Below are positions 6,254-14,921 of a DNA stretch of 64,000 bases, in pieces. This stretch comes from Nostoc linckia FACHB-104 (GTDB lineage: Bacteria > Cyanobacteriota > Cyanobacteriia > Cyanobacteriales > Nostocaceae): NCBI RefSeq assembly GCF_014696615.1, contig NZ_JACJQJ010000029.1:1-64000 (forward strand), in the 5' to 3' direction. The notes beneath the pieces are model-generated. The model was not told where the DNA came from. It searched no databases and was given only the letters and a program-made list of their open reading frames with translations. Position numbers and translations under genes: made by a program. Each line of letters begins with the position of its first letter. The stretch's first letter is position 1.

Positions 6254-6874
6254 ATGGACTGTCACCAATGTAAATCTAAAAGCCAATCCTGTGGAACTCA
6301 AGCATGGAAATTGCCATTCTTTCGCAATAGTCAACTATCATTCTCTAGGGAAGCTCCTGCAAGTCCGCCAATTGCCCTGGTAGGAATGCCTAATGTTGGT
6401 AAGAGTGTGCTGTTCAATGCATTGACTGGCATTTATGTAACTGTTTCTAATTACCCTGGTACAACCGTAGAAGTGAGTCGTGGTTTGATGCAAATTAATA
6501 GCCAAACCATGACAGTGGTTGATACACCAGGGATGTATTCACTGATGCCGATCACTGAAGAGGAAAAAGTTGCGCGAGATTTACTACTCATAGAACCTGT
6601 GACAGCCGTAATTCATGTGGTAGATGCGAAAAACTTGGGGCGGATGCTCCCCCTAACATTTCAACTCATCGAAGCTGGACTACCTGTTGTACTTGCCGTC
6701 AACATGATGGATGAAGCGCATCGTTGGGGGCTGGATGTGCAACAAGATGCGTTGGAGAAAGAGTTAGGAATTCCAGTAGTGTGCATGGCGGCGGCTTTAA
6801 AACAGGGTATTGATGAATTAAAACAAAGAATTATGCCATTTCTACCGATTCAGCCTGCCATGATTCCAGCATGA
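6254..6874 (+). CDS. feoB: FeoB GTPase-domain protein (N-terminal part of a split FeoB)
   Basis: The cytosolic G domain of the ferrous iron transporter FeoB as a free-standing 206-residue protein. The G motifs are complete: G1 GMPNVGKS (44-51), switch I YPGTT (67-71), G3 DTPG (90-93) and G4 NMMD (150-153), so it should bind and hydrolyse GTP. It ends just after the G domain. The N-terminus carries a short Cys motif (CHQC and a further Cys within 13 residues) that is unusual for FeoB and could bind metal. The membrane part follows as a separate frame after 129 bases, in the same reading phase but interrupted by stops at 6872, 6887 and about 6971. It is either a genuine two-protein FeoB or a gene broken by mutation; both halves look intact. 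Confidence 0.9.
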   Translation: MDCHQCKSKSQSCGTQAWKLPFFRNSQLSFSREAPASPPIALVGMPNVGKSVLFNALTGIYVTVSNYPGTTVEVSRGLMQINSQTMTVVDTPGMYSLMPITEEEKVARDLLLIEPVTAVIHVVDAKNLGRMLPLTFQLIEAGLPVVLAVNMMDEAHRWGLDVQQDALEKELGIPVVCMAAALKQGIDELKQRIMPFLPIQPAMIPA

Positions 6875-7003
6875 AAAGTGCTGAGTTAAAAGACCGTCCA
6901 CCAGGGGCGGAGCATTAACCGTAGTAACAAAGTATTTAAGTCATGCAAAACACTCAGTACTAAATACTGAGATGGTAAATATTTTGAGTCAGGAAAAAAT
7001 GGC
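6875..7003 (+). other. Linker between the two feoB frames
   Basis: 129 bases, a multiple of three, in the same phase as both feoB parts but with at least three in-phase stops. The stop of the first part overlaps an ATG (ATGA, 6871-6874) that opens a 15-codon frame ending at 6918. A modest AGGA precedes the ATG at 7004. The insert has no obvious repeat character. Confidence 0.5.
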
Positions 7004-8467
7004 ATGATCGGTCAAGTTAGCTATCCAGAACCCATAGAAGCCGCGATCGCACAATTAGAATCTTGGTGGAAAAGTTTAGGTGAGCGCTATTTATTTAGTA
7101 ATTATTCACTTTCACCCCGCAGCCTAGCGCTATTACTCTTACAAAAAGATCCGGCGCTGTGGCAAACCTTGGAACAAGATCCAGAACAGTGTCGCCATTT
7201 GGAAGTGTTGATTACTGTTACCCAAAATCAACTAAAACAGTCGATTGGATTAGCGATCGCCCACACTCGCCAAAACCAAGCACAGGCGATAGAACGAGCA
7301 GTTCTGCTTGAAACCAAACCAGCGCGATCGTCACTTGCAGAGAAACTCCATCGGCTGACAGTCAACCCCATCACTGGATTTCCCATCCTTGTGGTCATCC
7401 TTTACTACGGGGTGTACAAATTTGTGGGAGAATTTGGAGCAGGGGAACTCGTAGATCGCATCGAAACGGTTTTTGAGGAACAAATCAACCCAGTGGTGAA
7501 TCACATCACTGCTCAAGTAGTTCCCTGGCAACCAATCCAAGACTTGATTGGTAATGACTATGGCATTATTACTTTGGGGATTCGCTATGCTACAGCCATT
7601 GTCTTACCTGTAGTCGCTACTTACTTCTTGATGTTTTCGTTACTGGAAGATAGCGGCTATCTCCCACGTCTATCTTTGATGCTTGATCGCTTATTTAAAT
7701 CCGTTGGCTTATCAGGCCGGGCAGTGATTCCCATCGTGTTGGGCTTTGGATGCGACACAATGGCAACGATTGTTACCCGCACCCTAGAAACCAAACGCGA
7801 ACGATTAATTGCCACGTTTTTACTATCCTTAGCTATTCCCTGTGCAGCACAGTGGGGGGTAATTTTGGGGCTACTAGCACAAAAACCCGCAGCTTTGATG
7901 TTTTGGGGAGGCTTTATTAGTGCCATTTTCTTGGTAGTTGGCTATCTTACAGCTAAGTTTTTACCTGGTAGTTCCGGTAAATTTTACATGGAACTTCCTC
8001 CCTTAAGATTGCCCAACTTGCGGAACGTGGTTGTGAAAACTTGGGTGCGGATGAAGTGGTATTTCCTAGAAATCTTACCCTTGTTTATTTGGGCATCAGT
8101 TTTGATTTGGGTAGGGCGATTAACTGGATTATTTGACCTAATTATTCGGGCAATTGAACCTCTGACATTTGCCTTGGGAATGCCCAAACAAGCAGCACCG
8201 ATATTCCTTTATGGCTTCTTCCGGCGTGATTATGGTGCCGCAGGGCTGTTTGATTTACAGCAACAAGGAAGCCTCACAGGTAATCAGCTTGTAGTTGCTG
8301 CCATTGTCTTGACATTGTTCTTACCCTGTGTTGCCCAATTGCAAATGTTGATCAAGGAACGGGGAGCTAAAACTACTTGGCTAATAGTACTGTTTATTTT
8401 CCCCTTCGCCTTCCTGATGGGATATCTCGTCAATCTGGGCTTAACGTTCTTCGGAGTTAACTTTTAA
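7004..8467 (+). CDS. feoB: FeoB membrane-domain protein (C-terminal part of a split FeoB)
   Basis: The 487-residue permease part of FeoB. It opens with a helical guanine-dissociation-inhibitor-like segment (IEAAIAQLESWWKSLGERY), continues through a soluble linker, and then has two Gate-type membrane domains beginning at NPITGFPILVVILYYGVYKF. The conserved FeoB sequences GFGCDTMATIVTRTLETKRERL and AIPCAAQWGVILG are present, each with the pore-region cysteine. It lacks any G domain, so it must cooperate with the upstream GTPase protein to function as Feo. The feoA start follows one base after the stop, which indicates translational coupling. Confidence 0.92.
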   Translation: MIGQVSYPEPIEAAIAQLESWWKSLGERYLFSNYSLSPRSLALLLLQKDPALWQTLEQDPEQCRHLEVLITVTQNQLKQSIGLAIAHTRQNQAQAIERAVLLETKPARSSLAEKLHRLTVNPITGFPILVVILYYGVYKFVGEFGAGELVDRIETVFEEQINPVVNHITAQVVPWQPIQDLIGNDYGIITLGIRYATAIVLPVVATYFLMFSLLEDSGYLPRLSLMLDRLFKSVGLSGRAVIPIVLGFGCDTMATIVTRTLETKRERLIATFLLSLAIPCAAQWGVILGLLAQKPAALMFWGGFISAIFLVVGYLTAKFLPGSSGKFYMELPPLRLPNLRNVVVKTWVRMKWYFLEILPLFIWASVLIWVGRLTGLFDLIIRAIEPLTFALGMPKQAAPIFLYGFFRRDYGAAGLFDLQQQGSLTGNQLVVAAIVLTLFLPCVAQLQMLIKERGAKTTWLIVLFIFPFAFLMGYLVNLGLTFFGVNF

Positions 8468-8468
8468 A

Positions 8469-8690
8469 ATGAACGCCTTACCAACAGTTAAAATTGGTCA
8501 ACCGCAAAGGGTAGTATGTTTGCAAACTCAAGATGATGCCGTATTACACAAGCTGATGGCGTTCGGTATTCTGCCAGGAAGCAAATTAGTGCTAGAGCAA
8601 CGCTTCCCTTCCTATATCATCGCAGTCGGCAGAACCCGCACCGCCCTAGATAAGGAAACAGCACAAACTATTTTTGTGGAATCTTGTTAG
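8469..8690 (+). CDS. feoA: FeoA family protein
   Basis: Small SH3-like protein of 73 residues that accompanies FeoB and is needed for full ferrous iron uptake in other bacteria. The typical pattern is seen: a hydrophobic start, KLMAFGILPGSKLVLEQRFP in the middle and a final strand after DKETAQTIFVE. It is the last gene of a tightly packed feoB(G)-feoB(TM)-feoA operon, with one base separating it from the membrane part. Most FeoA proteins precede FeoB; here the gene follows. Confidence 0.9.
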   Translation: MNALPTVKIGQPQRVVCLQTQDDAVLHKLMAFGILPGSKLVLEQRFPSYIIAVGRTRTALDKETAQTIFVESC

Positions 8691-8705
8691 GTGTTGGGTA
8701 ATGGG

Positions 8706-10500: not shown

Positions 10501-12452
10501 ATGGAATTGCTAAATAGTTTTTTTTTCCTCAGCAATATATCCCTCATGGGCATTGCTATCTTTGGCAACCTCAATTAGTTGGGTTGCATATAGTCTCTGA
10601 TTTGCTCATTGGACTAGCTTATTATTCGATTCCAGTAATTTTGGTTTATTTTGTCCACAAGCGAGAAGATTTACCTTTTAATTGGATTTTTCTATTGTTT
10701 AGCACATTCATTATTGCTTGTGGCACAACCCACATCATAGAAGTGTGGACACTTTGGCATCCTATCTATTGGGTATCCGGCTTGATTAAAGCTATCACTG
10801 CTATTGTTTCTGTATACACAGCCATAGAATTGGTACCATTAGTTCCAAAGGCGTTGGCTTTACCTAGCCCTGCCAAACTAGAAGCTGCAAATGCTCAATT
10901 AGCTAAAGAAATTGCCGAACGCAAACGCACTGAAGCGGTATTAAGAGAAAGTGAACAACGTTGGCAATTAGCTTTACGTGGCAATAATGATGGGATTTGG
11001 GATTGGAATTTGACTACTAACGAAGTATTCTTCTCACCTCGCTGGAAAGAAATGCTTGGTTATCAAGAAGATGAGATTTCTCATAATTTAGATGAAATTA
11101 TTAACCGCATACATCCAAATGATGTTAGCAGGGTGAAAAAAGCAGTTAAAAGTCACTTTGCTAAATTCACACCGTTTTACATGAATGAGTATCGTGTATT
11201 ATGCAAAGATGGAATTTATAAATGGATTTTAGACCGTGGTCAAGCTTTGTGGGATGAAAATGGTAAAGTAGTGCGAATGGTAGGTTCGCAAACTGACATT
11301 ACTGAGCGTAAAAAAGCAGAAGAAAATCTTAATCAACTACTCGACAGGTTAGAAAATATAGTTGCAGAACGCACAGCAGAGTTAACCAGAATCAACACCT
11401 CACTACAGGCGGAAATTGCTGAACGCCAGCGCATAGAGGAAGCATTACGAGAAAGCGAACAGCAATTTCGGGCAACATTTCAACAAGCAGCTGTTGGTAT
11501 TGCTCATGTAGGAATAGATGGACGATGGTTATTAGTAAATCAGAGATTTTGTGATATTGTCGGGTATACATTTGAAGAACTACAATTACTAACTTTTCAA
11601 GATATTACTTACCCAGATGATTTGGAAGCTGACCTCAACTATATTGAGCAAATATTAGTTGGTGATATTCACACTTACACTTTAGAAAAGCGCTATTGTC
11701 GCAAAAACCATTCTCTCGTCTGGATTAATCTTACTGTCTCTTTAGTCCGCGATAGTTTTGGTAATCCCAAGTATTTTATTTCTGTGATTGAAGATATTAG
11801 CGATCGCCAGCGCTCTCAAGAACAGATTCGAGCATCATTGCGAGAAAAAGAAGTTCTATTAAAAGAAATTTACCATCGAGTTAAGAACAATTTTCAGGTA
11901 ATTTCTAGCCTACTCAGTTTGCAATCAGAATATATTAAAGATAAGGATGATATGCAAATATTCCAACAAAGCCAGCAGCGCATAGCATCTATGGCTTTGG
12001 TTCATGAAAAAATGTATCAATCAGGAGATTTATCCAGAATTAATTTTCGTGAATATGTTCAAGAATTAGTAGCGAGTTTATGTACATCATACAAAGTATA
12101 TGATGGTGCAATTACCTTACACATTAATATTGATGAGCATATTTTACTTGGCTTAGATACAGCAATTCCCTGTGGGTTGATTATTCATGAACTTGTTTCT
12201 AATTCTTTAAAATATGCTTTTCCTGAAGGTAGAAATGGTGAAATAAATATTGCCATCCGAGAAATGGCACATAATAGAATTGCGCTAACCGTTAGTGATA
12301 ACGGTATTGGGTTACCTCCAAACTTCAATTTTACAGAGACAGCATCATTGGGTTGGCAGTTAGTAGAAGCTTTGTCCTCTCAGCTTACAGGAGATATCAC
12401 AATTAAAAGCGATATCGGGGTAGAGTTTTTGATAACATTTTTTCTAGCGTAA
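10501..12452 (+). CDS. Ethylene-receptor-type sensor histidine kinase, N-terminus out of frame across a T9 run
   Basis: The intact frame can start only at a TTG (10584) and gives 622 residues: a three-helix ethylene-binding domain (1-95) with [13 protein letters not shown] in helix 1 and [10 protein letters not shown] in helix 2, where Cys46 and His50 match the copper ligands of plant ETR1. Then follow PAS (about 120-245), coiled coil, PAS (about 285-410), a HisKA_2 dimerisation helix with [14 protein letters not shown], and an HATPase domain. The same frame upstream of the TTG still encodes [10 protein letters not shown], which I know as the conserved start of cyanobacterial members, but it has no start codon. 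An ATG at 10501 opens MELLNSFF and runs into nine T (10518-10526). A -1 slip there would give a 650-residue full protein. The HisKA_2 output suggests phosphotransfer to a separate receiver, perhaps the next gene product. Confidence 0.85.
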
Positions 12453-14011: not shown

Positions 14012-14151
14012 AGAAGGAAAGCCAAAGATAAATAGAAAATATGTAATGAATTTTGTCTAGGTATGGAAAAAATTTATTCGGTGGATGACGTTTTTATATA
14101 TTTTGAATCCTCATACTAAATAATATAATATTTGTCAACTCCAAATAGAAA
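14012..14151. other. Spacer after the REC-PAS kinase
   Basis: AT-rich region between the kinase stop and the first small-RNA-like unit. No terminator was identified with confidence. Confidence 0.35.
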
Positions 14152-14240
14152 GATGATATATCAGTCTAGTATGTCTAAATTAGCTATATATGGTAAACAC
14201 CTGGTATATCTGGAGGCTTGGTTTTAACCGAGCCTTTTTC
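14152..14240 (+). ncRNA. Candidate small RNA unit 1 of 3
   Basis: Begins with GATGAT, then an AGTCTAGTATGTCTAAATTA block at 14163-14182 (TAAATT could be a -10 box), then CTGGTATAT. It ends in a terminator stem AGGCTTGGT / ACCGAGCCT (14214-14235, 4-base loop) followed by five T. The layout is shared with units at 14364 and 14514. A transcript of about 55-60 nt is predicted. There is no reading frame of note. Confidence 0.45.
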
Positions 14241-14363
14241 ATAGCTTTTTTTATTGATTCATATAGGTAAATAACTATAAAAGAATGATTTTTAACAAAT
14301 TAAGTTTATTGGGCAACTCTTCTACTATCAGTTTTTGGCATATTTGGATACATCCCCAAGGAA

Positions 14364-14456
14364 GATGATCTGTAATGAGACTAGGTCTAAATTAATTTAG
14401 TACGTTGTTAAGCACAGCAATGATCGAGGTTTGGCTCGCGACCAAACCTTTTTTTT
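14364..14456 (+). ncRNA. Candidate small RNA unit 2 of 3
   Basis: GATGAT at 14364, then AGACTAGGTCTAAATTA (14378-14394). It ends in a terminator stem AGGTTTGG / CCAAACCT (14427-14449) with a 7-base loop and an eight-T run. The middle part is the most diverged of the three units. The same order of elements is kept, which argues for descent from one repeated unit. Confidence 0.45.
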
Positions 14457-14513
14457 CAAAACTTACAAGTGAATCTTTAATCTGTCTTCAGGCTTTTTGC
14501 ACACATCCTCTAG

Positions 14514-14606
14514 GATGATGAACTAGAGTCAGACTAAGTCTAAATTAAGCATGGTGTAGTAAATGCTTGGTATATACAGAGGCTTGGCTAGGCCAAGCCT
14601 CTTTCA
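14514..14606 (+). ncRNA. Candidate small RNA unit 3 of 3
   Basis: GATGAT at 14514, AGACTAAGTCTAAATTAA (14531-14548, with the palindrome AGACT-A-AGTCT), then CTTGGTATAT shared with unit 1. It ends in an 11-bp stem AGAGGCTTGGC / GCCAAGCCTCT (14578-14602) and a T-run. Heterocyst RNA NsiR1 is known to be encoded in tandem direct repeats upstream of hetF in Nostocales; whether this array is related cannot be judged from memory. Confidence 0.45.
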
Positions 14607-14666
14607 TATATGTTTGTGTCGATTAACACTTTATTTGTCCGTGGCGACACATTATTTGACAGAAAC

Positions 14667-14909
14667 TTATAAAGACAAATCATTTGTCTTGATCATCTTA
14701 CGCTTCTTTCGATTAAAAGTCACAACGTTATTACTTTCAAACCCCATATTCACAATATTTATTTGTTGAAACTCGTGAATCAAGCGGGATACTGATTTAT
14801 CTTTGCCCCAGTCTTTCACGGTTTTTGGGTTAGTACCTGTAACTTGGGCGATCGCTCCACCTAAAAGTAAAATATTCGCATACTCTTGGTAGTGATTTGA
14901 GCAAACCAA
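14667..14909 (-). CDS. Possible small protein, unrecognised, perhaps a gene remnant
   Basis: An 80-residue frame with protein-like composition. The segment AQVTGTNPKTVKDWGKDKS looks like part of a helix-turn-helix, and a basic stretch (FNRKKRKMIK) lies near the end. Its start is only 13 bases from the divergent start of the next gene, which leaves little room for two promoters. I do not recognise a family; it could equally be a decayed fragment. Confidence 0.3.
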   Translation of the reverse strand: MVCSNHYQEYANILLLGGAIAQVTGTNPKTVKDWGKDKSVSRLIHEFQQINIVNMGFESNNVVTFNRKKRKMIKTNDLSL

Positions 14910-14921
14910 GGATGCAGAAGC

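Follow-up and report, generated by a model that had tools for sequence, protein, structure and literature searches.

Does the run of three similar units between the two-component genes of this locus encode small RNAs, and if so, how do they relate to known cyanobacterial RNAs? In the window (the whole stretch of 64,000 nucleotides that was analyzed), the intergenic stretch at 14012-14921 carries three units on the + strand (approximately 14136-14606), each starting with an upstream block that contains GATGA, followed by an GTCTAAATTA element, a short body and lastly a hairpin that has a T-rich tail. The GTCTAAATTA elements lie at 14173-14182, 14385-14394 and 14538-14547, and folding placed a hairpin 3' of each (14212-14237, 14426-14450 and 14578-14602). 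An earlier note on this DNA had the order and coordinates of the three tandem units right, as judged by the sequence, alignments and folding, and its reading of them as small RNA genes in tandem, each with a promoter and a terminator of its own, is the best one and is supported by the comparisons below. Its estimate of about 55–60 nt per RNA is replaced by predicted lengths of 52–56 nt. Unit 1 has CCTGGTATAT, not CTTGGTATAT, and the GATGAT of unit 3 is 3 nt out of register.

All features of the units are on the + strand. Unit 1, which we refer to as type A, has a promoter region at 14136-14187 with a diverged upstream box (CAACTCCAAATAGAAAGATGA) and, from alignments, a -10-like TAAATT (14176-14181), followed by a predicted sRNA of ~53 nt (14188-14240, body ATATATGGTAAACACCTGGTATAT), with its 5' end placed from the position of the -10 element. 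The terminator hairpin of unit 1 (14212-14237) was identified by folding, and the same stem covaries in 46 family members. For unit 2 (type B), the upstream promoter box ACATCCCCAAGGAAGATG (14350-14367) is an exact match of ACATCCNNNAGGAWGATG, and the -10-like TAAATT, conserved in all types, is at 14388-14393. The predicted sRNA of ~56 nt (14400-14455) contains a TACGTTGTTAAGCACAGCAAT core and a sub-threshold match to RF02596 (cyano_het_sRNA, which we take to be NsiR1; 14400-14452, 24.4 bits), and its terminator hairpin with a T-run (14426-14450) was seen by both folding and a terminator scan. Unit 3 (type C) likewise has an exact match of ACATCCNNNAGGAWGATG as its upstream promoter box (ACATCCTCTAGGATGATG, 14503-14520), a -10-like TAAATT (14541-14546; alignments, conserved in all types), a predicted sRNA of ~52 nt (14553-14604, body GGTGTAGTAAATGCTTGGTATA; sub-threshold RF02596 match at 14553-14603, 26.5 bits) and a terminator hairpin by folding (14578-14602) with a weak T-run (CTTTC). 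Relative to shuffled sequences, the presumed RNAs of units 1, 2 and 3 fold with z of -3.3, -2.5 and -2.8. In a search of the whole genome with a covariance model of the family (best 150 of 5947 candidates scored), unit 1 (match at 14136-14241), unit 2 and unit 3 scored 89.3, 90.5 and 96.1 bits (E from 1e-12 to 6e-14), which is more than chance; the three units are among the 46 training rows of the model, and units from genomes outside the training set score equally high (for instance, 110.6 bits in G079). There was no match to Rfam at the gathering threshold within the window, and no match in a search of a plasmid collection.

Compensatory change in the terminator stems, as the earlier note had proposed, was confirmed by covariation in 46 family sequences that were hand-chosen to cover the types: 99.5% of cells are paired, double changes are found at 5/8 pairs, the covariation score of the stem was reached by 0/500 shuffles, and slid controls score lower. 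For further pair types, one of five covariation measures, 6/500 shuffles reached the observed value. The strong hairpin with a T-run claimed for each unit holds for the hairpins, by folding and covariation, and fails in part for the T-runs, which are imperfect in units 1 and 3. A generic terminator scan detected only unit 2; it found 2 terminators (the other elsewhere on the - strand) compared to 1.0 expected (sd 1.2), which by itself is not significant and shows no clear excess. The evidence for the stems is folding and covariation, and the generic promoter and terminator scan was set aside as uninformative.

The promoter parts conserved across units are the TAAATT and an upstream box, ACATCCnnnAGGAwGATG. 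Across seven same-genus genomes, all exact matches to the box (17/17) were within type B or C units or NsiR1 genes, and of four more distant genomes, one had a single exact match that is not within a unit (L185). Allowing one mismatch gave 32 matches in the seven genomes versus 7 for the reversed pattern, and 6 of the 8 one-mismatch matches with fetched loci fall in no unit. The previously described AGACTARGTCT palindrome is present in units 2 and 3 (4/5 and 5/5 pairs) and does not hold in unit 1 (1/5). In relatives it keeps a mean of 1.9–2.7 of 5 pairs versus ~1.4 in nearby sequence; it thus appears to be above background yet weakly conserved, and it was rejected as a key required element on these values. 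We also looked for the DIF1 motif (TCCGGA near -35), which passages of PMC6133370 give for NsiR1-class promoters: between -46 and -25 of A–D units, 7/212 had it within one mismatch, with ~5% expected by chance. As the array promoters are without DIF1, their regulation may differ from that of NsiR1; the upstream part of the promoter is common with NsiR1, which does not amount to evidence of HetR control.

A search of relatives with the 910-bp stretch matched 34/78 genomes (any part of the stretch counted), and an exact type-B 21-mer was found in 68 stretches from a collection of 84,980 species, of which 67 have titles with names that we take to be those of Nostocales and one is titled just uncultured cyanobacterium. 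Our locus set comprised 78 loci (the 68 from the exact type-B piece, the window and 9 loci from further genomes), with units below 30 bits dropped. Cultured strains with the array include Calothrix brevissima NIES-22 (L048) and Nostoc carneum NIES-2107 (L070). Alignment of the units in relatives separated types A, B and C, corresponding to units 1, 2 and 3, from A', A'', D, E and F, which are absent from the window; relatives hold up to seven units. Two or more units were present in 75/78 loci, always on one strand (75/75), and 73/75 of these kept the order D-F-A''/A'-A-B-C-E, with A' and A'' counted as one rank. The two exceptions each depend on a single poorly typed unit. The window siblings are mutually 49–59% identical and 88–99% identical to their best match elsewhere. 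For 302/303 units, the nearest unit in another locus was of the same type, although this count is partly circular, as type was defined from the body. Considering promoter sequence alone, the nearest unit was of the same type for 278/301 (16% expected), and for 254/301 (16% expected) if matches of at least 85% were passed over, so the types predate much of the divergence among these genomes. Each of the three units of the window represents a distinct old type with a body of its own, and they are not duplicates of a single gene.

The bodies are the most conserved part of the units. Mean pairwise identity for types A, B, C and D (n = 47, 72, 49 and 45) was 0.89–0.95 in the body (0.89 for A and 0.95 for C), 0.57–0.72 in the promoter and 0.30–0.39 in the far flanks; the body values overestimate the identity, since typing and anchoring of the units relied on the body, and 68 loci had been retrieved with the exact type-B piece. 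Across the 37 loci not chosen by the type-B piece (units of at least 25 bits), exact cores were found in 29/31 type-B units (the TACGTTGTTAAGCACAGCAAT core, which is also in the 68 genome stretches), 22/24 of type C, 20/25 of type A and 12/17 of type D. Each of types A, B and C has its own conserved body in register with the common promoter and terminator. In several genomes of one genus, type B has changed or degenerated, and degenerate units occur in single genomes (L154). Since many related species have this set in the same order, the units are probably real regulators, not stray repeats. There were also cases where type C is located apart from the A-B pair (contig C107 of G003, where it is ~15 kb off and on the opposite strand, and contig C1 of G005), so that, within a genus, a unit seems able to relocate on its own, as a cassette of promoter, body and terminator.

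The covariance model R1 matched 135/217 genomes of the window's family, from 31/56 genera, and gave no match in the other 82/217 (18 candidates scored per genome). In an order-wide draw, 57/388 genomes were matched (10 candidates scored), all within this family. As R1 includes NsiR1 and E-type rows, these counts describe the superfamily, not the array alone, and some R1-positive genomes have a single match each. The genes next to the array vary, with the largest related-neighbor group having 9 members over the 78 loci, so the two-component operons look incidental. Pfam agreed with the earlier note that the neighbors in the window are two-component genes: upstream are an ethylene-receptor-type kinase (PF25487) and a hybrid regulator-kinase. 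A link to two-component operons, ethylene or light is unsupported, as most other loci that were read have other neighbors, and genes at least 50% identical to the upstream kinases were found at 6/68 loci (loci span at most 8 kb, so some neighbors lie outside). The two-component operons were rejected as partners since neighbor genes differ across loci, and the array behaves as a self-contained locus. The histidine kinase at 10584-12452, which adjoins the hybrid regulator-kinase, has its ethylene-receptor-type domain at the N-terminus (PF25487, E 2e-42). No tRNA gene was found in the window, and 7/38 scanned loci hold one (36 of the 38 carry array units).

The known relative is NsiR1, an RNA of nitrogen-fixing cyanobacteria. 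It is one sRNA encoded by several tandem copies, which are in part identical and in part slightly divergent, and it steers heterocyst differentiation; its array is located upstream of, and partly antisense to, hetF. Its transcription is HetR-dependent and heterocyst-specific, and it pairs with hetF and alr3234 (hetP-like) mRNA. On the 910-bp stretch, RF02596 matched all three units in E-value mode, at 26.5, 24.4 and 16.9 bits, below the Rfam gathering score of 35.7 bits. A further two matches were to hairpins of the opposite strand (20.7 and 15.7 bits), and therefore part of each score is due to the stem alone; as sub-cut-off matches (E up to 10) occurred in 13/14 control genomes, such matches are weak on their own. 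In the same genome, one gene was above the cut-off (G000:C160:36972-37026, 74.9 bits; best 150 of 1639 candidates), and the next matches were C149:141473 (31.7 bits) and then two of the window units. The C160 gene shares upstream promoter blocks with the window units. When NsiR1 and E-type rows were left out of a profile (95 of 102 rows kept), it still found eight NsiR1 loci at 45–63 bits across promoter, body and terminator, with the eight loci typed as NsiR1 by a body motif taken from the C160 gene. The same profile found the E-type locus at 40.8 bits and gave no match in 450 block-shuffled sequences. The array units are thus paralogs of NsiR1, and the comparison drawn in the earlier note proved closer than supposed: the units are divergent homologs. 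In several tests the units do not behave as NsiR1 itself, and they appear to be members of an NsiR1-related superfamily. For instance, when the longest members of the 24 largest neighbor groups were inspected by eye for HetF beside the array elsewhere, none was HetF-like. The genome's own NsiR1 gene (L162, G000:C160:36920-37029) is single within the 14 kb examined, and by eye no listed ORF around it is HetF-like, whereas PCC 7120 has an array of 12 copies upstream of hetF. The genome also has an E-type unit elsewhere (L163, G000:C149:141422-141532, 70 bits) and a weak relative of the array that is probably decayed (L164, G000:C120:18437-18541, 44.5 bits).

Quite probably, the window has three genes from an ordered and conserved array of sibling sRNAs, which are homologs of NsiR1 and whose separate RNAs would pair in trans. 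Each gene would be transcribed from its own promoter, with the upstream box (ACATCCnnnAGGAwGATGA) centered at approximately -45 and the -10-like TAAATT, and would end at its own intrinsic terminator, giving a predicted RNA in the 52–56 nt range. Having the promoter in common, the siblings would be switched on jointly, and each would pair with its own set of mRNAs through the type-specific 5' body (~20–25 nt). From these features we infer transcription, start sites, trans pairing and regulation; control by nitrogen or heterocyst development is suggested by analogy with NsiR1. Passages of PMC9045159 describe near-identical NsiR1 copies that regulate different targets, a precedent for divergence between siblings. 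In eight genomes, sites complementary to the type-B core gave 14 non-self matches versus 11 for the reversed control, and inspection of the 14 contexts by eye found no clear start-codon site. A site common to four same-genus genomes was rejected as a type-B target, being inside apparent coding sequence.

Type C has a further association. Within it (14553-14573, +) are a PAM-like GGTG and the 17-nt sequence to which V-K CAST anchor spacers of relatives correspond, and just beyond the unit (14617-14695, no strand assigned) is a putative remnant of a V-K CAST-type transposon end, with repeats containing ATTTGTC, GCGACACATTATTTGAC and GACAAATCATTTGTC, which we take to resemble type V-K CAST ends. 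Clustered repeats of this kind were found downstream of 9/58 distinct type-C units and 0/252 other units; as the repeat list was drawn up with the type-C loci already in view, it is the comparison with other types that serves as the test. At L155 (G246), the type-C unit has a Cas12k gene (NCBIfam V_Cas12k, 977 bits) and CRISPR-type repeats next to it, and TAGTAAATGCTTGTTAT, which follows a lone repeat end (GGGTTGAAAG), is 16/17 identical to the type-C body. The same layout of lone repeat and spacer is present at L154 (G242), with 17/17 identity and no Cas12k gene identified, and L087 has a 16/17 match to type C without a recognizable repeat. The V-K CAST features are at 6787-8694 and ~6091 (- strand) in L155 and at 6737 in L154. 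At both L154 and L155, the protospacer follows a GTG, and the left end begins 58–59 nt on from where the protospacer starts. The end repeats of the window begin at ~14617, a similar distance (~60 nt) from the equivalent position. No anchor spacer was found beside the window's transposon end, which is why this end is probably a remnant. By these matches, at least one type V-K CAST, and probably more, uses the type-C gene as its attachment site. An 80-aa open frame at 14667-14909 of the window (- strand) has no Pfam or NCBIfam match; the stretch that holds it recurs in relatives (in three places in G007, for instance), and it is perhaps a remnant of a transposon-borne gene.

These results can be set against four other explanations. 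The clear homology in promoter, body and terminator, together with the tandem array known for NsiR1 itself (in passages of PMC9045159) and the degenerate units in single genomes such as L154, would fit a set of diverged or dying extra NsiR1 copies with the same function or none. Decay would, however, erase the bodies, whereas each type keeps a body of its own across genera, different from NsiR1 and from its siblings, and a separate NsiR1 gene persists in the same genome; we therefore regard this explanation as unlikely. About equally improbable is that the units are sponges or decoys for NsiR1 or for a hairpin-binding protein and do not pair with mRNA: the stem and layout common to all types speak for such a role, but it leaves unexplained why every type keeps its own body.

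Less credible still are two further explanations. Cis-acting leaders or attenuators of the downstream response-regulator gene were considered given that the array is just upstream of that gene (14922), but the array stays while neighboring genes change between loci, and a separate terminator hairpin closes every unit, with over 300 nt between the last one and the gene, making this very unlikely. A MITE- or REP-like mobile repeat that maintains itself by transposition could explain the displaced type C in G003 and G005 and the transposon ends that adjoin type C in several genomes; the few copies per genome, the fixed order and the orthologous types make it similarly hard to credit. An array of sibling sRNA genes remains our preferred reading.

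At its fullest, this reading is that part of one cyanobacterial family has up to seven sibling sRNAs as an ordered set with a nearly private promoter box, each with its own fixed seed and its own targets, and that they jointly reprogram cells in nitrogen stress or heterocyst development; type C would be constant enough for CRISPR-guided transposons to have taken it, and not a tRNA gene, as their landing site. We give this full version an even chance of being right. What is new is a conserved-order array of divergent siblings in the NsiR1-related superfamily; we found no published description of the array as a set, although Ionescu 2010 (the first NsiR1 paper) and Muro-Pastor 2014 could describe related copies. 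If true, a second, ordered array of strongly diverged paralogs would constitute an sRNA regulon with one promoter logic and several seeds, and the conserved bodies would make target finding by comparative genomics practical. With type C as a V-K CAST site, the known landing sites, mostly tRNA genes in the reviews consulted, would be joined by an sRNA gene, and we found no publication with an sRNA gene as a V-K attachment site. The transposons' use of type C would be an independent sign that its sequence is constant enough to rely on.

There are three known systems with which the array can be compared. In Nostoc sp. PCC 7120, sRNA 4547237r (51 nt) and NsiR8 (4547556r, 171 nt) are on the same strand, 319 nt apart, and have homologs only in heterocystous genomes (PMC4734099). 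The array is similar in strand, in spacing (304–531 nt from A to C in 25 loci), in the size of one of the two RNAs and in its heterocystous-only distribution, whereas NsiR8 is much longer than an array unit. The fit is suggestive, and 4547237r, for which Northern and primer-extension data are published, may be a member of the array, a guess from spacing, size and distribution. The array resembles NsiR1, as described in passages of PMC9045159, in its homologous promoter blocks, body layout and terminator, in its predicted RNAs of 50–60 nt, in its occurrence in heterocystous cyanobacteria and in its tandem genes that each have a promoter and terminator (for the array, by sequence only). It differs in that its units are below the RF02596 cut-off, are not beside hetF and are without the DIF1 motif, and in that the window siblings are as diverged as given above, while 7/12 NsiR1 copies of PCC 7120 are identical (same passages). 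Finally, passages of PMC9938897 describe the V-K unit as a truncated repeat, a 17-nt anchor spacer and a GTN PAM, with 46–82 nt from PAM to left end and usually a tRNA gene as the site. The type-C loci agree in the 17-nt anchor spacer after a truncated repeat, the GTN PAM and the left end 58–59 nt on; they differ in the attachment gene, which here is a predicted sRNA gene and elsewhere, according to parts of PMC9938897 and PMC11406308, is mostly a tRNA gene.
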